From positions 620,001 through 684,000 of the forward strand of contig JANQOQ010000006.1 of assembly GCA_028285755.1 (NCBI GenBank): a stretch of 64,000 nucleotides of DNA. The letters are read 5' to 3'. The notes below the pieces were generated by a model, which made no database searches, was not told the DNA's origin, and worked only from the letters and a program-made list of their open reading frames with translations. Position numbers and translations under genes: made by a program. This DNA is from Puniceicoccaceae bacterium. Its GTDB lineage: Bacteria; Verrucomicrobiota; Verrucomicrobiia; Opitutales; JAFGAQ01. Position 1 is the first letter of the stretch, and every line of letters starts with the position of its first letter. This document shows positions 43,537 through 52,137 of the stretch, one piece after another.

Positions 43537-43625
43537 AAACTGTAAAATAGATAATATGGCGGTTTAAAAATCTCTTTGTTGACTTAGCTAGTGAGATACT
43601 GGAATAATTGAGACAACTATTACCC

Positions 43626-44168
43626 ATGACAGATTACGACCAGACTATTTGGTTTAATGAAGAGATCAAACCCCATGAACCTTCATTAAGATCCTGGTTG
43701 AAACGTCAGTATCCCCTGGATGCAGGTGTGGATGACGTTTTGCAGGAGTCTTACATACGCATTTTGCAAGCACGTCAAAAACGCCCCATTTTTTCTCCCC
43801 GGGCTTACCTATACAGAACCGCAAGAAATGTCGCCTATAATTTCATTGAGAAGAGTCGCATGCACATTACAGAACCCATTGAGGATTCACACAGCGACTA
43901 TTTTAAGGACAATTCCGCCAGTACTGCAGAGCTTGTAGAGCTGAATCAGGAGATCGCACTTCTGCATGATGCGATCCGGGCGCTTCCCAAAAGATGCCGG
44001 GAAATTTTCACCCTTCGTAAGATTTATGGACACTCTTATAAAGAGATATCTGCTAAATTGAATATATCCGAGCGCACAGTATCCGCACAGATGAATATCG
44101 CCCTCAGAAAGTGCGCAGAATATATCAAGAAAAGGTCCAAGCAACAGCCGGGGAAAATACAGAGATGA
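43626..44168 (+). CDS. FecI-like ECF sigma factor
   Basis: 180 residues from the ATG at 43626; an upstream in-frame TTG at 43608 is less likely. Region 2 (WLKRQYPLDAGVDDVLQESYIRILQ, then YLYRTARNVAYNFIEKSR) and region 4 (LPKRCREIFTLRKIYGHSYKEI, SERTVSAQMNIALRKC) are clear. The neighbours are a FecR-like anti-sigma gene (ATGA overlap) and an STN-domain TonB receptor, so this is a cell-surface signalling unit that should control the receptor operon. Confidence 0.9.
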   Translation: MTDYDQTIWFNEEIKPHEPSLRSWLKRQYPLDAGVDDVLQESYIRILQARQKRPIFSPRAYLYRTARNVAYNFIEKSRMHITEPIEDSHSDYFKDNSASTAELVELNQEIALLHDAIRALPKRCREIFTLRKIYGHSYKEISAKLNISERTVSAQMNIALRKCAEYIKKRSKQQPGKIQR

Positions 44169-45190
44169 ACCTATTTAATAATAAGCGCAAGAATCTGGAA
44201 CGTGAAGCTGCAAAAAAAGTTCTGGACAGAGCCAACAATAAAAAGCCCGGCAGCGGTAAAGTGGTTGGATGGGAAAATAATGCGATCGAAAAACAAGAAC
44301 TCATCGATGAATATCAGGATGTTTGGGATCGATTCGATTTAATCTCAGAAGGTAAAAGTTCTGAACCCAATCTTGAGCGATTTGCTCCCAGGGGTGGGCG
44401 TTTCCTCTATAATTCTATTGTAGCCACTGCTTCTATCGCAGCAATTTTATTGATCACATTTGTGTTAGTACCGCTGGTGGTAAATGATTCCAAAACCCAT
44501 GTAGCAGAAAGCGTGCGTAGGGCATTGAACGCAGAACAAGGGGATTATTACGAACTTCAGGATGGTTCCACCCTCGAGTTAAACCTAAATACACGCCTGG
44601 TGTATGAGTATACTGATTTGGAGCGTAATTTTTGGGTAGAAACGGGCGAAGTCTATTTTACAGTAGCGAAAGATGTGTCACGTCCATTCAATGTATACGT
44701 ATCCGATGCACGTATTCAGGCTTTGGGCACTGAGTTCAATGTAAAGTATGCCAATGAAATGATCGAGGTAGTGGTAACCGAAGGTAGGGTACAGTTGAGC
44801 CAACCTTCGGAAATAAGTGATAAGGCCACTAATCAACCCATTGCGTACTCCATGAAACATGAAGAATTGGTCGTAAATCAAAAAGCAGTAATCGATACCG
44901 GCAGTTATGAAAACAATTCCGAGTTAAGCCAGGTGGACGAAATTGAAGTCGATGCGATGCTCTCATGGAAACCGGTTACATTGAGATTTTCGGCAGCACC
45001 CCTTTCCGAAGTAGTAGCATCCTTCAACCAATTTAATGAGACTAAATTAATAATCGCCAATCCAGAAATAAATGATCTACGGATTGATGCGACATTCCGC
45101 TCCAATAAATTAGATGGGTTTGTAAGGCTTATACAGGCTACCAGTAATGTAAATGCAGAATACCAAGATAATACTATTTTACTATACTAG
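44165..45190 (+). CDS. FecR-like anti-sigma/signal transducer
   Basis: 341 residues from the ATG at 44165 that overlaps the sigma stop. A basic cytoplasmic N-terminal region (about 90 residues), one membrane helix (ATASIAAILLITFVLVPLVV) and the periplasmic FecR domain (LQDGSTLELNLNTRLVYEY, ETGEVYFTVAKDVSRPFNVY, ALGTEFNVKY, VTEGRVQLS). The last 75 residues resemble a DUF4974/STN-like module (VTLRFSAAPLSEVVASFNQF). It should bind the receptor's STN domain outside and the sigma factor inside. Confidence 0.9.
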   Translation: MNLFNNKRKNLEREAAKKVLDRANNKKPGSGKVVGWENNAIEKQELIDEYQDVWDRFDLISEGKSSEPNLERFAPRGGRFLYNSIVATASIAAILLITFVLVPLVVNDSKTHVAESVRRALNAEQGDYYELQDGSTLELNLNTRLVYEYTDLERNFWVETGEVYFTVAKDVSRPFNVYVSDARIQALGTEFNVKYANEMIEVVVTEGRVQLSQPSEISDKATNQPIAYSMKHEELVVNQKAVIDTGSYENNSELSQVDEIEVDAMLSWKPVTLRFSAAPLSEVVASFNQFNETKLIIANPEINDLRIDATFRSNKLDGFVRLIQATSNVNAEYQDNTILLY

Positions 45191-45292
45191 TCTTTTACGT
45201 GTGCTTGTTTATCCAATTCTATATAAAATCCCCCCACTCCACAAAAAAGTCATAATCTTTTAGAGGTACATCCAAAAAGCAGGGTCTGTCTA

Positions 45293-48200
45293 ATGAAGGA
45301 ACTACTCTGTACATGCCCCCAAAGTTTGAAAACAAATCCCCTATTAACTACAACACAGATGATAGGAACATATGCTTTAGGGTTTTGTGTGTACTTGTTG
45401 ATTGCATATGCGGCCTTGGCAAATACCGAGAAAATTTCATTCGAAGTAGAAGCTGGGGAAGCGCGCGATACCCTAAAGTTAGCCGCCGAGCAAAGCGATA
45501 TCGATCTAATGTTCAACACATCCATTGTGGAGAATGTTCAAACCGAAAATATCCAGGGGGAGTATACTATCCCCGAGGCATTTTCAAAGCTATTGCGGAA
45601 TACGGGGCTCGCTTTATACAAGGATACCGCGAGCAGCACTTATGCAATTATACAAATTCAGGGTAGTTCAGAGACTGAGCACATCGGCTCAGACTCACAT
45701 TATCCACATAATGATAATAACCCTGAAATGACTACATCAAACAATAGACCGACAATAATGAACCGCTTTACGCGAGGTTTGGTTTCATTATTAGCAATTG
45801 GGGCGGCAACCACCGCAATTGCACAAGATGATCTGGAGGATGAAAACATCTTCCTTCTATCACCTTTTGTCATCGATGCTTCGGAAGATGACGGTTACGT
45901 CGCCAATACGACTTTGGCGGGAACTCGATTAAAAACAAACCTAGCCGATATTGGTTCATCCATTACTGCCGTTACTGAACAGTTTATGGAAGATACGGGC
46001 AGTACAAACGTTAATGATTTATTCATTTACACAGCTAATACAGAAACCGCCAGTGTTGGCGGAAACTTCAGTGCCGGTTTTGAGCAGAGTGACGCTTTTG
46101 GCCGCGGTTTCCAAAGTGGAAGTACATCCATAACGAACCCACAAAGTGCTCAACGTGTTCGTGGATTGGCTTCTGCAGATACTACCCGTAATTTATTTCG
46201 CAGCAGCTTGCCTTGGGATAATTATAATATTGACCGGGTGGAGATTGTTCGCGGAGCTCAGTCGATACTCTTTGGGCAAGGCAGCGCCGGTGGTATTGTC
46301 AATGTGAATTTGAAAAAAGCATTTTTCCGGGATGCACATGAAATACAGGTACGCTTTGATGAGAATGAAAGTCTGCGTACAACCTTTGATTCCAATGTTG
46401 TGCTTATTGATGACAAACTGGCTATACGCGTTGCAGGACTGAGGGATCGCTTTAATTTTCGCCAGGACCCTGCTTATGAGGATGATGACCGCCTGTTTGC
46501 AACGGCAACCTGGAAAATCAATGATAATCTCACTTTCCGTGTAAACGGCGAAGCCGGCTCTATCCGCGCCAACCGCGCCAATCCTTTTGGACCTACCGAC
46601 GGCTTTTCTTTCTACCTGGATCAATTGGGCACTGCCACATACCCCATTGTTACCAGCGGTCAGGAAATCCCGCGCATTGATGTAGCGCCTATCCCGGAAG
46701 TCGGTTTCGCAGGTCAGACTGACCAGGTACCCGCAAATACTCCCCGTATTTTTGTACAATATGGTCTTAATTTAAATGCGGACGGTTCACTTGCAGGTAA
46801 TACACCTGCTGAGTATTCTACGCGTTGGACCCTGGGCTCAAACACCATTCAAAATGGAAACCCCGCAGGCATTCCCCGATCAGGGCGCACCCATCGTTTC
46901 ACACGCACGGACTACGAAGTATCAAGAGGGATAGGCCTTATTCCGCAGAGCCTTGAGGATTACTCCATCTTTGACTGGAAAAATAACCATCTCGCAGGTA
47001 ATTACCCTTATCAGGATGAGGATTTTCAAGCGTTTAATACCGCACTTGAATATATCTCAGATGAAGGACATTTTGGTGCGGAATTCACTTATGACATCCA
47101 GTTGAGGGATCGTGACTTCAATGCAGGCCCCACGGGTTCGCGAGATTATATCATTCGTCTGGATGTTACTGAAGATACTTTTGATGGAAGCGGTGCAAAT
47201 CCGAATGTATTACGCCCTTCAATGACTCTCACGCAAAATCAAAATGCAGGAACTATTCAAAAAGAGGTCAGAGAAGCTGCCCAATTAACCGCATTTGCAA
47301 GATATGACTTCGTGAATGACGCAGGATTAGATAATTGGTTGGGCCGGATTTTAGGTAATCATACCCTGACTCTCTATGGCAGCCGTGCGGCAACCCGTTT
47401 TGACAGCCGTGGCTTTGACGAAACCTGGGAGGGCGAGAACATCGCAAGAAATGCCAGTAATGGTTTGAATCCGAATCGTCCTTTTGGACATCCGCATAGA
47501 GATGTGGGAGCAAATGTTTATCTGGGGCCATCAATCAGTTCCATAGACGATATCAGCATCACTCCTTTACAGTTTTCTGCCAGGGATTATTTCCCGGACG
47601 GACAAACGTACACCCTGCGAGTCTGGGACAAAGCTTCGCAAACCTTCCGTGATATTGAACATACCGCCACAACTCATATCACGGGTATATCAGATACCGA
47701 GCAGGTTATCGAAACCATGGCATTTATTCTTCAAAGTAACCTTCTGGATGACCACATCATCACCACTTTGGGTTACAGAGAAGATACCGTTACAGAGACT
47801 ACCGCTCAGTTCGGAATCGTTGACGGAACCAACGGTGTTCGGAATCCCTCTGATATTACGGACATTATCTTAGACGAAGGGGATGACGGCTATTTCAGCT
47901 GGAGTGTAGTCGCGAAGTCTCCGCGTAACTGGGATTTGCCCTTTGGAACCAACTTCAGCGTTTTCTATAATGAATCTGAAAACTTTAATCCGGCGGATAC
48001 AGGCCGCGTAGATGCTCTTGTAAGGCCTATTGATCCGACCACCGGAACGACAAAGGATTATGGTTTCCGAATCAATACCTTCAACGATAAGCTGCAAATC
48101 AAGTGGAACTTCTTTGAATCTTCGCTTGAAGGGCAAACCTTCAATCCGGGTGGCCTCATTCGCGTTGCGATTATTGAGATAGACACGCGCTTCCGCGAGT

Positions 48201-49099
48201 TCACCGTCCTGCCGGGTGTGGATACCGGTTACCTGGACCCCAATGACCCGAACCTGGCAGCCTGGGGTTCTCCGCCACCTGCCGTGGTTGACGAAGTCAA
48301 CATCCGCCTGGACGACAGCGGAGAGATCTTCCTCTTCGACGGTACCGGCCGTATCACCGATACAACCGACACATCTGCTGAAGGTATGGAAATTGAAGTC
48401 GTCTGGAACCCGATCTCCGAATTGCGAATCATCGCCAACGCTGCTCGCCAGGAAACCACGCGCACCAATAGCATGCAGGGTTTGCAGGATTACCTCGCAC
48501 TGCGACTGCCGGATTGGCAAAATGCATTCGACTATCCACGTGGGCAGGTCAGCGATGAGCGATTGGAAGAATTAGGCTGGGAACCAGGTGAATTGCTCGA
48601 TATCGCAGCCTTTGCGGCCGCTTATCCGAACAACACTGTAGGAGGAGATTATGATAGCCGTATCCGCATCCCGCTTCAGGCGATTTTGGATCAGGATGGT
48701 GGTGTTGTGGATGAGCAACGTGAATGGCGTGCAAATGTCATCGCAAACTGGACATTCGCGAATGATTCCAAGTTTAGCGGTTTCAACGTAGGGGGTGCCC
48801 TTCGCTGGCAGGACAAAGCGGCTATTGGTAATCCGTTTACATTTAATGATGACGGCCAGTTGATTACAGACGTAAACAACCCATTCTTCGGACCAGATGA
48901 AACCAACTTTGACGCTTGGGTGGGATACAAGCGCAAAATCCTGGATGGTAAGGTGGACTGGAAGATCCAGCTCAACATTCGTAACCTCTTTGCGGATGAT
49001 GATCCGATCCCGGTAACGATTGATGCATACGGCAACCCAGCGCAGTTGCGTCTGCCCGCACTTCAATATTGGTATGTCACCAATACCTTCAGCTTCTAA
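45293..49099 (+). CDS. STN-domain TonB-dependent receptor with two signal-like segments
   Basis: 1268 residues. Residues 23-43 form a first hydrophobic export signal, 48-122 an STN signalling domain (ISFEVEAGEARDTLKLAAEQ), and 123-155 a polar linker. A second complete signal-like segment starts at M156 (MNRFTRGLVSLLAIGAATTA, then AQ), followed by the LSPFVIDAS N-terminal motif, the plug (LAGTRLKTNLADIGSSITAV, VEIVRGAQSILFGQGSAGG) and a long beta-barrel ending in an aromatic residue (YVTNTFSF). It takes up an unknown substrate and signals via FecR/FecI. No clear ribosome site precedes M156. A terminator follows. Confidence 0.88.
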   Translation: MKELLCTCPQSLKTNPLLTTTQMIGTYALGFCVYLLIAYAALANTEKISFEVEAGEARDTLKLAAEQSDIDLMFNTSIVENVQTENIQGEYTIPEAFSKLLRNTGLALYKDTASSTYAIIQIQGSSETEHIGSDSHYPHNDNNPEMTTSNNRPTIMNRFTRGLVSLLAIGAATTAIAQDDLEDENIFLLSPFVIDASEDDGYVANTTLAGTRLKTNLADIGSSITAVTEQFMEDTGSTNVNDLFIYTANTETASVGGNFSAGFEQSDAFGRGFQSGSTSITNPQSAQRVRGLASADTTRNLFRSSLPWDNYNIDRVEIVRGAQSILFGQGSAGGIVNVNLKKAFFRDAHEIQVRFDENESLRTTFDSNVVLIDDKLAIRVAGLRDRFNFRQDPAYEDDDRLFATATWKINDNLTFRVNGEAGSIRANRANPFGPTDGFSFYLDQLGTATYPIVTSGQEIPRIDVAPIPEVGFAGQTDQVPANTPRIFVQYGLNLNADGSLAGNTPAEYSTRWTLGSNTIQNGNPAGIPRSGRTHRFTRTDYEVSRGIGLIPQSLEDYSIFDWKNNHLAGNYPYQDEDFQAFNTALEYISDEGHFGAEFTYDIQLRDRDFNAGPTGSRDYIIRLDVTEDTFDGSGANPNVLRPSMTLTQNQNAGTIQKEVREAAQLTAFARYDFVNDAGLDNWLGRILGNHTLTLYGSRAATRFDSRGFDETWEGENIARNASNGLNPNRPFGHPHRDVGANVYLGPSISSIDDISITPLQFSARDYFPDGQTYTLRVWDKASQTFRDIEHTATTHITGISDTEQVIETMAFILQSNLLDDHIITTLGYREDTVTETTAQFGIVDGTNGVRNPSDITDIILDEGDDGYFSWSVVAKSPRNWDLPFGTNFSVFYNESENFNPADTGRVDALVRPIDPTTGTTKDYGFRINTFNDKLQIKWNFFESSLEGQTFNPGGLIRVAIIEIDTRFREFTVLPGVDTGYLDPNDPNLAAWGSPPPAVVDEVNIRLDDSGEIFLFDGTGRITDTTDTSAEGMEIEVVWNPISELRIIANAARQETTRTNSMQGLQDYLALRLPDWQNAFDYPRGQVSDERLEELGWEPGELLDIAAFAAAYPNNTVGGDYDSRIRIPLQAILDQDGGVVDEQREWRANVIANWTFANDSKFSGFNVGGALRWQDKAAIGNPFTFNDDGQLITDVNNPFFGPDETNFDAWVGYKRKILDGKVDWKIQLNIRNLFADDDPIPVTIDAYGNPAQLRLPALQYWYVTNTFSF

Positions 49100-49317: not shown

Positions 49318-52137
49318 ATGAAATCTAACTTAATTAACTGGGGTGGATTGCGTCCACTTGCTTTTGTTTTAACCACGCTTGCTTCGCTCTTTGCCATGAA
49401 TTTACAGGCACAGGCGACTGGTTCGATTACCGGTCAGGTAGGCGATGAATATAACCCGGGCTTTCTGAACGGGGTTACAGTTCGTGTGCAAGGCACATCA
49501 ATCGTCACCAGCACCAATCGTTTTGGCGAATACACACTTCTCAACGTGCCTAGCGGTCAACAATCTGTGATTTTCAGCTATGTGGGATACGAGACCCAAA
49601 TATTGAGCACCACGGTTGTCTCCGGTCAAACCGCCCAGGTGGATGCGACTATGAGTGCTGAGGTCCTGCTATTGGAAGCTTTTCAAGTACAAGGCGGACG
49701 CATCGTAGGCACGGCTCGTGCGCTAAATCAGCAAAAGACGGCTGAGTCCTTCCGCAGCATCATTGCTTCGGATGCAATTGGCCAGCTACCGGATGAAAAC
49801 GTTGCCGAAGCCCTCAACCGTATGCCGGGCGTTTCTATCGCGCGTGACCAGGGGGAAGGCCGCTTTGCAATCATTCGCGGTATCGACCCACAGCTTAACA
49901 GCTACTCCATTAATGGGGTCACCATCGGCGCTCCTGAAGACGGTGCGCGCTCCGTAGCACTCGACATTCTTCCGAGTGAAATGATCTCTACACTCGAGGT
50001 AACCAAGGTGATCACTCCTGACATGGATGCTGACGCCATCGGGGGTGCGATCGATATTCAGATCAAGAGCCCCTTCGATGAAAATGGGCGCATCCTGCGC
50101 GGATCTTTCGCAGGCACTTACAGTGACCTTCGCGGTGAATTTGGCAACAAGGTGAGCTTGACTTATGGTGACCTTTTTCAGGACGGCACCGTAGGCTTCA
50201 TCATTGGTGTGTCCAACAGTGAAAAACGCTTTGGTTCCGATAATACGGAGGTTGATGGTAACTGGAGTGATGAAGGCAACGGCGCATTTGCACCGGACGA
50301 TGAGCTTGAAACGCGTGAGTATAACATAAACCGTTACCGACAGAATGTAACCTCCGCACTTGAATTCAAACCGGACGAAGGCCGCTATTTCTACATCAAA
50401 GGATCATTGAGTGAATTTTCTGACATGGAAGCCCGCTACCGCACCGAAATCAAACCCGGTGAAGGCGATGTTGAGGAAGCAACTTCAAACCGCGTATTAC
50501 TCACAGGTGTTGCAGAAACCGACCGGGACGTCAAAGACCGCTTCGAAAAACAATTGATTACTTCAATCGTTGCGGGGGGTGAAATTGAACTGGGTAACAG
50601 CTTCATCGACTTCCAGGCTGCCTACTCATACTCTGAGGAAGAAGAACCTTTCCGCCTGGATACTGATTTCCGCTTCGAAGATTCCGATCTGACATTGGAA
50701 ATTCTTGATGCTGACACCTATACACCCCGTGTAAATCAGTTGGCGGGCCCTAGCATCTTCGATCCTTCCAATTTCGCATTTGATGGCATTACCCGCGAAG
50801 ACAACATCTCCGAGGAAGAAGTCATCGAGTTCGAAATTAATTACCGCTACGACTTCTTGTTTGCGGATAATCCAACATACTTTAAGACGGGTGCAAAAGC
50901 CACTTTGAAAACCAAGTCCACGGACGTTGAAGTTTCAGAAAACGATGAAGATCCTGAAGGCCTTGAAACCCTCGCAGATGTGGTTCAAACCGACGGTCGT
51001 TTCACATTCCTTGAGGGTCCGTATGCGTCTCAAACCGCAATTCGTGACCTCTTCAATGCGAACCCTGGTGCGTTTGCCATGGAGCGAAATGACGAAGACA
51101 GTACCACTGCTGACTATCAGTCTACCGAGCACGTAGTAAGCACTTACCTGATGGCAGGTACTCAAATGGATAAAGTTGAGCTAACAGCCGGTGTTCGCCT
51201 CGAGAAGACCTTCTTCGAAACCGATGGCTTCAGTTACGATATCATCGAAACTGATGCGGTTGAAGGCGAATTTATATCTGAGCGTGGCGCTGATAGAGAC
51301 TACATCGACTTCTTCCCATTCTTAGGCTTCAACTACGAATACACAGAAAACCTGATTTTCCGTGGCGCGATTTCTCAAACCATTGCCCGTCCTCGTTTCG
51401 ACCAATCTGCGGCGCGCCGTCTGGTAGAGCAGGAAGAGGATGAAGGTGAGATATCAACCTCTGTTGAAGTGGGTAATCCAAACCTTGAACCTTTCGAATC
51501 TACAAATATCGATCTCTCGGTAGAATACTACACTGAAAACCTGGGTGTGCTCTCCGTGGCTTTCTTCTACAAGAGCATTGATAACTATATCTACGACATT
51601 CAAACCGATGAAGTAGGCCTTTTCGGAGCTCAAGAAGCTGAAGTAGCTTCCTTTGCAAATGGTGACGAAGCAACCATTACCGGTGTTGAGTTCAACATCA
51701 ACCGTCAGTTGACATTCCTCCCGGAAGCACTGGATGGTTTTGGCATCAACGCAAACCTGACGCTCTCAGAAAGCGATGCTGAAGATGACACCCTTCGCCC
51801 GGGTGATTCACTTGCACTGCCTCTGCAGTCTGACACGATTGGCACAATCGCTCTCTATTACCAGAATCACGGTTTCAACTTCCGTATTGCCGGCACTTAC
51901 CGCAGTGAGTATCTGGATGAGTTTGGTGGAGAGCTTTCAGAGGACCGTTGGGTAGACGAGCACTTCCAGTGGGACCTAAGTGCATCGTATGATGTGAATG
52001 ATAACGTCAACATCTTCGCAGACGTTATCAACATCAACAATGAGCCATTCCGTGCTTATTTTGATGTTTCAAACCGTCTCTCCCAGTTTGAAGAATACTC
52101 CTGGTCCGGTCGTTTTGGGGTAAAAATCAATCTCTAA
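49318..52137 (+). CDS. TonB-dependent receptor with carboxypeptidase-like N-terminal domain
   Basis: 939 residues. A signal peptide (LAFVLTTLASLFAMNLQAQA) precedes a carboxypeptidase regulatory-like domain (SITGQVGDEYNPGFLNGVTV, TNRFGEYTLLNVPSG). The plug then reads AEALNRMPGVSIARDQGEG, FAIIRGIDPQLNSYSINGV and TLEVTKVITPDMDADAIGG, typical of the TIGR01782-type TonB receptors, which in related bacteria often import sugars. The barrel ends GRFGVKINL. Its own promoter region and terminator separate it from the FecIR unit. Confidence 0.9.
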   Translation: MKSNLINWGGLRPLAFVLTTLASLFAMNLQAQATGSITGQVGDEYNPGFLNGVTVRVQGTSIVTSTNRFGEYTLLNVPSGQQSVIFSYVGYETQILSTTVVSGQTAQVDATMSAEVLLLEAFQVQGGRIVGTARALNQQKTAESFRSIIASDAIGQLPDENVAEALNRMPGVSIARDQGEGRFAIIRGIDPQLNSYSINGVTIGAPEDGARSVALDILPSEMISTLEVTKVITPDMDADAIGGAIDIQIKSPFDENGRILRGSFAGTYSDLRGEFGNKVSLTYGDLFQDGTVGFIIGVSNSEKRFGSDNTEVDGNWSDEGNGAFAPDDELETREYNINRYRQNVTSALEFKPDEGRYFYIKGSLSEFSDMEARYRTEIKPGEGDVEEATSNRVLLTGVAETDRDVKDRFEKQLITSIVAGGEIELGNSFIDFQAAYSYSEEEEPFRLDTDFRFEDSDLTLEILDADTYTPRVNQLAGPSIFDPSNFAFDGITREDNISEEEVIEFEINYRYDFLFADNPTYFKTGAKATLKTKSTDVEVSENDEDPEGLETLADVVQTDGRFTFLEGPYASQTAIRDLFNANPGAFAMERNDEDSTTADYQSTEHVVSTYLMAGTQMDKVELTAGVRLEKTFFETDGFSYDIIETDAVEGEFISERGADRDYIDFFPFLGFNYEYTENLIFRGAISQTIARPRFDQSAARRLVEQEEDEGEISTSVEVGNPNLEPFESTNIDLSVEYYTENLGVLSVAFFYKSIDNYIYDIQTDEVGLFGAQEAEVASFANGDEATITGVEFNINRQLTFLPEALDGFGINANLTLSESDAEDDTLRPGDSLALPLQSDTIGTIALYYQNHGFNFRIAGTYRSEYLDEFGGELSEDRWVDEHFQWDLSASYDVNDNVNIFADVININNEPFRAYFDVSNRLSQFEEYSWSGRFGVKINL

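Follow-up and report, generated by a model that had tools for sequence, protein, structure and literature searches.

A putative signal peptide and conserved start codon within STN-domain TonB-dependent receptor genes of the Opitutales: probably two receptors from one gene

Why would a receptor that begins with an export signal carry what looks like a second one, led by a methionine, in its interior? The question is raised by an open reading frame (45293-49099, forward strand) in the window, our term for the whole 64,000-nucleotide stretch of Puniceicoccaceae DNA analysed here. The frame runs without an internal stop over 1268 amino acids and, with Pfam matches to STN and Plug, encodes an STN-bearing TonB-dependent receptor. 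It opens with signal peptide 1 and STN; a linker and a Met lead on to signal peptide 2, which is followed by a TonB box-like motif, the plug and the barrel.

Architecture of the window gene

Two genes on the same strand adjoin the receptor gene on its upstream side and make up a shared signalling operon with it. One encodes an ECF sigma-70 factor (43608-44168; Pfam Sigma70_r2 and r4_2), the other a FecR-type anti-sigma factor (44111-45190; Pfam FecR, 2.6e-18, and FecR_C, 9.4e-7); both start codons are uncertain. The Pfam match to STN (residues 74-107, E 1.1e-4) scores 22.4 bits and so lies below the cut-off of 28.4 bits. The STN call (residues 48-121; 45434-45655) is nonetheless upheld, because the fold predicted by AlphaFold2 for residues 1-136 (mean pLDDT 87.6) resembles, in Foldseek, the signalling domains of FpvA, PupB and FecA (2o5p_B, E 1.1e-6; 6ovm_B, TM 0.89 by target; 1zzv, E 2.5e-4). 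The plug domain (PF07715; residues 218-335; 45944-46297) is matched with an E of 1.3e-10, and about residues 160-420 align with solved receptors, among them 3qlb, FoxA, FhuA and FpvA. By its STN domain, its plug and the adjacent ECF sigma and FecR genes, the protein is classed as a TonB-dependent transducer, for which signal transfer from ligand to sigma factor is predicted.

The protein has two hydrophobic cores, at residues 31-42 (mean Kyte-Doolittle value 2.35) and 166-177 (1.98), which are signal-peptide-like and which we treat as the cores of two putative signal peptides. The first spans residues 1-43 (45293-45421), its end having been set by eye after AYAALA and before N. The second spans residues 146-177, followed by Q178 (45728-45823); it has a basic n-region, NRFTR, the core LLAIGAATTAIA, and the end TTAIA before Q, after which comes DDLEDENIFLLSPF. 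Both calls are based on hydropathy, charge and an Ala-x-Ala end, and on these grounds the internal signal peptide reported by the first-pass annotation is present. Downstream lies IFLLSPFVI (45848-45874), which would be part of both products proposed below and which we label, by its position, as putatively TonB box-like; its S190, P191 and F192 fall in columns of alignment A1 that vary little or not at all.

The linker between STN and signal peptide 2 (45656-45727) is variable and Asn-rich in alignment A1. Its mRNA, A-rich and G-poor across the family, would form the upstream half of an internal initiation region. Two in-frame ATG codons follow, at 45728-45730 (M146) and 45758-45760 (M156). 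The first-pass annotation had placed a possible second start at M156; an internal start is favoured by what follows, but its position is probably M146. The NP..M step found there recurs in many paralogues, an AACCC motif (45719-45723) sits just 5' of the codon, and the least folded stretch of the mRNA lies at about codons 147-151, the 60-nt windows centred on codons 148-151 having a folding energy of 0.0 kcal/mol. A scan of 45150-45900 for a promoter of a separate short transcript yielded one sigma-70-like match, on the minus strand, against a shuffle mean of 1.8; it is uninformative as to ECF promoters.

Conservation of the proposed internal start region

The receptors of the same genome were chosen by plug domain and frame length, independently of the internal segment. 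An internal signal peptide is present in 36 of the 37 STN receptors so found, and each of these 36 cores has an ATG 5-24 residues ahead. The 37th, L074, has neither core nor ATG there, and a 38th, found by the family model only, has both. FecR lies upstream of 35 of the 37, versus 1 of 40 STN-less receptors; no FecR was found within the upstream stretch examined in the other 39. Within the order Opitutales the design recurs in 31 of 372 genomes, which belong to 19 of 100 genera. The idea that it reflects a recent fusion peculiar to the window gene, as first suggested, does not survive this shared order of parts. Matches to the family model (E<=1e-36) occur in 8 of a phylum sample of 387 genomes, the own genome included, and all belong to this order. 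The scan covered those STN receptors that the model recognises, so restriction to the order does not follow from it. With up to 7 candidates scored per genome, the counts for order and phylum are lower bounds. Among 10 candidate stretches from named genomes, tblastn found no close relative of the whole window protein; a wider alignment gave 79 loci (from the best 80 of 403), assigned to Opitutales, Opitutaceae, Pelagicoccus or, for some, only Verrucomicrobia.

Pooling gave 167 homologous ORFs, open by construction. Since the A1 model used for foreign recruits includes the internal segment, segment-less foreign members are under-recruited; the own-genome set is unaffected. The core is kept in 157 of the 167 and absent in 10, so that a plain linker devoid of signal character, which would have spoken against the first-pass annotation, is not what the large majority has. 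All 157 core-bearing members conserve an in-frame internal start codon: 150 ATG, 5 GTG and 2 TTG, the last seven assigned by place, having been picked by eye at the n-region head (a GTG or TTG within 22 codons is not rare). ATG occurs in the 22-residue n-region of 148 of the 157, whereas the adjacent linker on the upstream side has one in 28 of them and the downstream side in 15; among the nine others, seven have the GTG or TTG ahead of a Lys/Asn-rich n-region and two have an ATG at 28-29 residues. Two control windows within STN are also ATG-rich (107/157 and 49/157), at least partly because the STN helix keeps a Met. The homologous receptors L170 and L175 have GTG and TTG, respectively, at the internal start. 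Across 42 non-overlapping homologous pairs (STN identity 0.50-0.91), a start codon stands on both sides in all 42, with mean identities of 0.40 in the linker and 0.25 in the n-region; the pairs were drawn from ORFs having a start, and this is not a formal rate test.

The mRNA around the internal start is nearly unfolded. The 60-nt windows there have a median folding energy of -1.8 kcal/mol. From a distance of 60 nt onward the values lie between -13 and -16, and for 1058 Met codons elsewhere the value is -13.4 (p 6e-81; p-values here are too small, because sequence counts are not independent events). Synonymous reshuffling gives -5.2 at the internal start, and the native sequence is more weakly folded in 149 of the 157. 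Codons that end in G make up 16% of the synonymous choices in the region versus 33%. The unfolded, G-poor state is thus partly due to synonymous codon choice. The starts of STN-less receptors are similar (-3.4, 63 sites), unlike the outer start of the STN receptors (-9.9, in the 125 of 157 with a Met found). Two of the 157 core-bearing ORFs have no unfolded stretch (-15.2 and -10.9).

The segment-less members differ in the same features. An ATG in the usual range is found in 1 of the 10, versus 146 of the 157 core-bearing ORFs (p 7e-9), and a least-folded linker window above -7.5 in 1 of 10 versus 155 of 157; L074 still has a fairly unfolded linker (-3.4).

In the own genome AACCC stands 5' of 24 of 36 internal ATGs, as against 10 of 35 STN-less receptor starts and 21 of 333 genes overall (in these counts, as in those of start position, the Met taken for L079 was a wrong one further upstream). 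It is commoner than synonymous shuffling would produce: 23 of the 34 sites of the own genome have it, versus a mean of 7.4. Only 47 of 87 occurrences lie in the Asn-Pro frame and 40 in the other two, and we reject the view that AACCC is a mere Asn-Pro protein motif. Conceivably it is bound by an sRNA or an RNA-binding protein, or pairs with 16S rRNA. A Shine-Dalgarno-driven internal start was likewise considered and mostly not found: a GGAG-type word is present in 17 of the 157. The putative internal ribosome-binding region is unfolded, G-poor and AACCC-enriched, yet in 140 of 157 lacks a Shine-Dalgarno-type word; the genome is poor in such words generally (59 of 333 genes, taking the first ATG of the frame as start).

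By comparison of sequences, then, a start codon, signal character and an unfolded initiation region are conserved at this site, together with linkage to FecR. The suggestion that a second start yields a receptor without the signalling domain draws strong comparative support from the start codons and the unfolded mRNA.

Two probable products from one gene, and other readings

We consider it quite probable that this one gene is in effect two in-frame overlapping genes with one stop, encoding a transducer that has STN and a transporter that lacks it. Initiation at the outer start would give signal peptide 1, STN, linker, a buried signal peptide 2 and the receptor; this long product would be a cell-surface-signalling transducer able to contact FecR, the anti-sigma factor whose gene lies upstream. 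Initiation at the internal start, in the unfolded, G-poor region, would give an ordinary receptor exported via signal peptide 2. The short product, devoid of STN, could therefore transport but not signal, and we propose that the segment is retained because it serves as that product's export signal. Signal peptide 2 is lower in hydrophobicity than other signal peptides here (median Kyte-Doolittle value of the core 1.94 versus 2.22 and 2.40), which may let the long product cross the membrane. The synthesis of both forms, the ratio between them and the way they would share the work are inferred.

A bolder form of this reading strikes us as improbable: a genome-wide two-isoform strategy in which each STN receptor mRNA yields little transducer and much STN-less transporter, the balance being fixed by an AACCC-type initiation element specific to receptors, and in which signal peptide 2 of the long product is also cut, so that STN stays tethered to the inner membrane beside FecR. 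Such a tethered STN, if real, would explain how a receptor of the outer membrane can reach an anti-sigma factor in the inner one.

Cleavage may also be the whole story, although we think this distinctly unlikely. Only the long product would then exist; signal peptidase would cut at signal peptide 2, freeing STN beside FecR (the hydrophobic segment perhaps anchoring it in the inner membrane) while the mature receptor goes to the outer membrane. The Ala-x-Ala/Gln-type end common across the family is in keeping with this, as are standalone STN lipoproteins between FecR and receptor in several operons; and a study of Pseudomonas FoxA (PMC11637429) describes a signalling domain that is cut from the receptor and has a protective effect on the anti-sigma factor. 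A cleaved precursor needs neither a start codon, nor GTG/TTG substitutes, nor unfolded mRNA, and its basic n-region would presumably face the periplasm, an awkward topology. Cleavage is compatible with an internal start, and therefore may be an addition to it and not an alternative.

Another possibility, to which we give little credence, is that STN modules were repeatedly fused at the start codon of receptors and that the old start and signal peptide persist functionless. STN presence does change repeatedly on the tree described below, and L003 and L032 hardly differ between the internal Met and the start of the plug, yet share only 43 of 133 aligned residues upstream. (An ungapped nucleotide comparison of this pair downstream of the ATG, 765/1419, was probably spoiled by an indel and is set aside.) A fossil start accords poorly with start codons on both sides of homologous pairs whose linkers are so diverged, with the bias at synonymous sites, and with decay of the kind expected from neglect in just 10 of 167 pooled members and, in the own genome, where sampling was unbiased, in 1 of 37. 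That the long protein simply retains the segment as a structural or transmembrane element, its Met incidental, is scarcely credible: the STN-to-plug frame is open in 92 of 93 matches listed from an order search that read through stops, but such an element needs no start codon or unfolded RNA, the core falls short of other signal peptides here in hydrophobicity, and E. coli FecA has neither such a segment nor a linker Met.

Known systems and the history of the STN module

The transducers FecA, FpvA, FoxA and PupB likewise have STN before plug and barrel, lie beside ECF sigma and FecR genes, and include the structural entries that match the STN fold of the window protein. In E. coli FecA, the sole transducer checked as a control, the stretch from STN to plug has no hydrophobic core (maximum 0.85), no Met and no unfolded stretch; the window gene, unlike FecA, has there a full putative signal peptide with its own start codon. 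The STN-less receptors of the own genome begin similarly with a signal peptide, many continuing with the same acidic stretch and an LSPF-like motif and some having AACCC before the start, as in the STN receptors; unlike the window gene, they have no STN module and, in 39 of 40, no FecR found upstream.

Among literature matches listed as titles and abstract openings, a set that excludes subscription papers and preprints, we did not find this arrangement described. Two-polypeptide endolysins (PMC9430671) and Salmonella N-terminal proteoforms (PMC11005335) are phage and bacterial cases of an in-frame internal start, the shorter product having its C-terminal part and stop codon in common with the longer. 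The Salmonella report describes short OmpX and PagC forms that lose the signal peptide; compared with these, the internal start proposed here brings a second signal peptide, and it is the signalling domain that would be lost. The internal site also differs from these internal-start genes in mostly lacking a Shine-Dalgarno word.

If the two-product reading is true, nearly forty signalling receptors in the own genome, and relatives within one order, run as nested gene pairs, with an internal start that carries its own export signal and is conserved over many genes and genera. Start-site annotation of these genes may then conceal a second product, and transport could rise without more signalling domains. 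The Pseudomonas FoxA/FoxR study cited above reports that the signalling domain binds the anti-sigma factor 1:1 and, when overproduced, inhibits signalling. The balance of signalling-domain number, and the role of AACCC before receptor starts, would become testable.

A quick tree built from the plug domains of 77 receptors requires the STN label to change 14 times, and starred branches force at least 5 of these changes; the closest neighbour of the window receptor on it, as its sister, lacks STN (97, starred). STN modules have thus been repeatedly gained or lost, so that recent fusions may have left some of the starts behind as fossils, and fusion in a wider sense is plausible. In L233, in favour of the two-product reading, stops break the STN region and the receptor frame from the internal ATG is intact. 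Standalone STN lipoproteins were seen in several operons of the own genome and of G004, and a receptor-detached STN is therefore probably in use here.

The window gene and its relatives

The gene at 45293-49099 (+) is a single open frame of 1268 codons, preceded by genes for an ECF sigma factor and FecR (Pfam). Its product comprises, in order, signal peptide 1, an STN domain, a linker of ~24 residues, a methionine, a second signal-peptide-like segment ending in TTAIA|Q, the sequence IFLLSPF, the plug and the barrel. The Pfam STN match scores 22.4 bits, under the 28.4-bit cut-off; when residues 1-136 are modelled with AlphaFold2, however, the fold matches the signalling domains of FpvA, PupB and FecA. 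These features bear out the first-pass annotation, which had described an STN receptor with a second, internal signal peptide. Immediately downstream (49318-52137) lies another TonB-dependent receptor, which lacks STN and carries a CarboxypepD_reg domain.

STN receptors are already known. A plug-domain search of this genome found 77 receptors; sorted by frame length before the plug and by reading of the sequences, 37 have an STN-type N-terminus and 40 lack one (36 short, 4 with an intermediate N-terminal extension). A FecR gene lies upstream of 35/37 STN receptors vs 1/40 others, in a search that covered 0.7-1.7 kb for most receptors; the sole STN-less case is the receptor after the window gene, and the FecR concerned is that of the window operon. 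Of the 37 STN receptors, 36 have an internal hydrophobic core ahead of an acidic stretch and an LSPF-like motif, and an ATG lies 5-24 residues before that core. L074 is the one exception, lacking both the core and an ATG there. One additional STN receptor, found outside the 77 with the family model described below, shares this layout and likewise follows a FecR gene. The STN-less receptors carry their signal peptide at the start, in a place matching the internal one. The internal signal peptide is therefore the rule among the STN receptors of this genome, rather than an exception.

The family model, built on 23 own-genome sequences with the segment included, matches at E<=1e-36 in 31 of 372 genomes of the order (own included) and in 19 of 100 genera. 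Eight genomes in a phylum sample of 387 match, all from the same order, and the record titles of 79 loci of named genomes read Opitutales, Opitutaceae, Pelagicoccus and similar, some just Verrucomicrobia. The order-wide search that counts stops gave a frame without stops in 92 of the 93 matches listed. Open frames with STN and plug from all loci, exact duplicates dropped, form a pool of 167 ORFs. Comparison of these homologues found the core (mean hydropathy of at least 1.2) retained in 157 and absent in 10 of these, a ratio biased because the segment is part of the recruiting model; the own-genome count is free of that bias.

The start codon and its mRNA context

An ATG falls within the 22-residue n-region in 148 of the 157 core-bearing ORFs, vs 28 in an upstream linker window, 15 downstream, and 107 and 49 inside the STN domain, where a helix itself often holds Met. 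The nine others have an ATG at 28-29 residues (2), or GTG (5) or TTG (2) heading a Lys/Asn-rich n-region, for a census of 150 ATG, 5 GTG and 2 TTG. Two loci with an STN identity of 0.87, L170 and L175, have GTG and TTG, respectively, at the start position. If single changes from ATG were random, the chance that all seven non-ATG codons, chosen by place, are GTG or TTG would be ~3e-5 to 6e-5. Among 42 non-overlapping homologous pairs from the 157, mean identity is 0.40 in the linker and 0.25 in the n-region, with a start codon on both sides in all. An ATG in the usual range occurs in 1/10 core-less vs 146/157 core-bearing ORFs. By sequence comparison, then, the conserved feature of this region is the start codon.

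The mRNA round the internal start looks like an initiation region. In 60-nt windows centred on it, the median folding energy is -1.8 kcal/mol. It drops to between about -9 and -10 when the window is moved 30 nt in either direction, and to between -13 and -16 from 60 nt outwards; 1058 other Met codons in the same ORFs give -13.4. When the region is reshuffled synonymously the value becomes -5.2, with the native version less folded in 149/157, so codon choice adds to protein composition; synonymous codons ending in G account for 16% upstream of the start, down from 33%. Values at other starts are -3.4 for STN-less receptors (63/66 pooled) and -9.9 for the outer start in the 125/157 ORFs where a Met was found, the Met farthest upstream near the core being used. 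The least-folded linker window lies above -7.5 in 155/157 core-bearing vs 1/10 core-less ORFs (L074, -3.4). In E. coli FecA, the single outside control, the region from STN to plug lacks a core, a Met and any unfolded stretch. Where genes have no Shine-Dalgarno word, weak folding near the start codon has been described as important (PMC5397173), and PMC10783764 classes some Verrucomicrobia as SD-scarce; a GGAG-type word lies within 30 nt upstream of 59/333 own-genome genes.

The word AACCC lies within 30 nt upstream of 24/36 internal starts (L074 left out, and another locus, L079, scored at the wrong Met), 10/35 STN-less receptor starts (one short receptor lacking a placed start left out) and 21/333 genes of this genome. 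The word is more frequent than in synonymous shuffles: 23/34 of the own-genome sites in the pool have it (shuffle mean 7.4, maximum 12 in 300), as do 76/157 of all sites (shuffle mean 35.4, maximum 48), and it falls in all three reading frames (47, 32, 8). AACCC thus seems to be conserved at the nucleotide level. The word, which differs from the Shine-Dalgarno word, occurs at 45719-45723 in the window gene and upstream of many TonB-dependent receptor starts.

One gene, two putative products

Most likely, we infer, a single gene gives rise to two products: a long, STN-bearing transducer from the outer start and a short, STN-less transporter from the internal one. Signal peptide 2 would have to export the short product, yet be able to pass in the long one. 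Its weaker hydrophobicity (median 1.94 vs 2.22 in STN-less receptors, p 1.7e-6, and 2.40 in signal peptide 1, p 5e-21) fits this double demand. A natural experiment is offered by L233 (G338:C72), a locus in another genome, where stops break the STN region, one of them four codons ahead of the internal ATG; from that ATG the receptor frame, signal peptide included, is intact in the part read (open frame, 1150 aa). Such a pattern would be expected if the receptor can be made from the internal start alone. In-frame internal starts are already known (PMC9430671; PMC11005335); among the matches listed in the open-licence literature, we found no description of a family-wide internal start with its own signal peptide that drops the signalling domain.

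A quick tree of the plug domains places the window receptor beside an STN-less one (97*) and requires 14 changes in STN presence, of which at least 5 are forced. Many branches are open, so we claim only repeated gain or loss of STN. Two own-genome loci, L003 (C1) and L032 (C10), are near-identical from the internal Met to the plug start and have very different STN modules, which suggests module exchange near the internal start.

Another possibility is an additional cut at signal peptide 2 of the long product. The FoxA receptor of Pseudomonas loses its signalling domain by cleavage, and the detached domain protects the anti-sigma factor (PMC11637429). In some of the operons studied here, an STN lipoprotein is encoded between FecR and the receptor. 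Cleavage alone, however, leaves the start-codon evidence unexplained.

Small standalone STN proteins with a lipobox-like Cys (frames of 106-151 aa) occur at L001, L008, L009, L010, L012 and L030 in this genome and at L186:623-947 and L187:550-940 in genome G004. In those read out (L030, L186, L187), the gene lies between the FecR gene and the STN receptor gene. Such a protein could possibly be a membrane-tethered STN partner or decoy for FecR.
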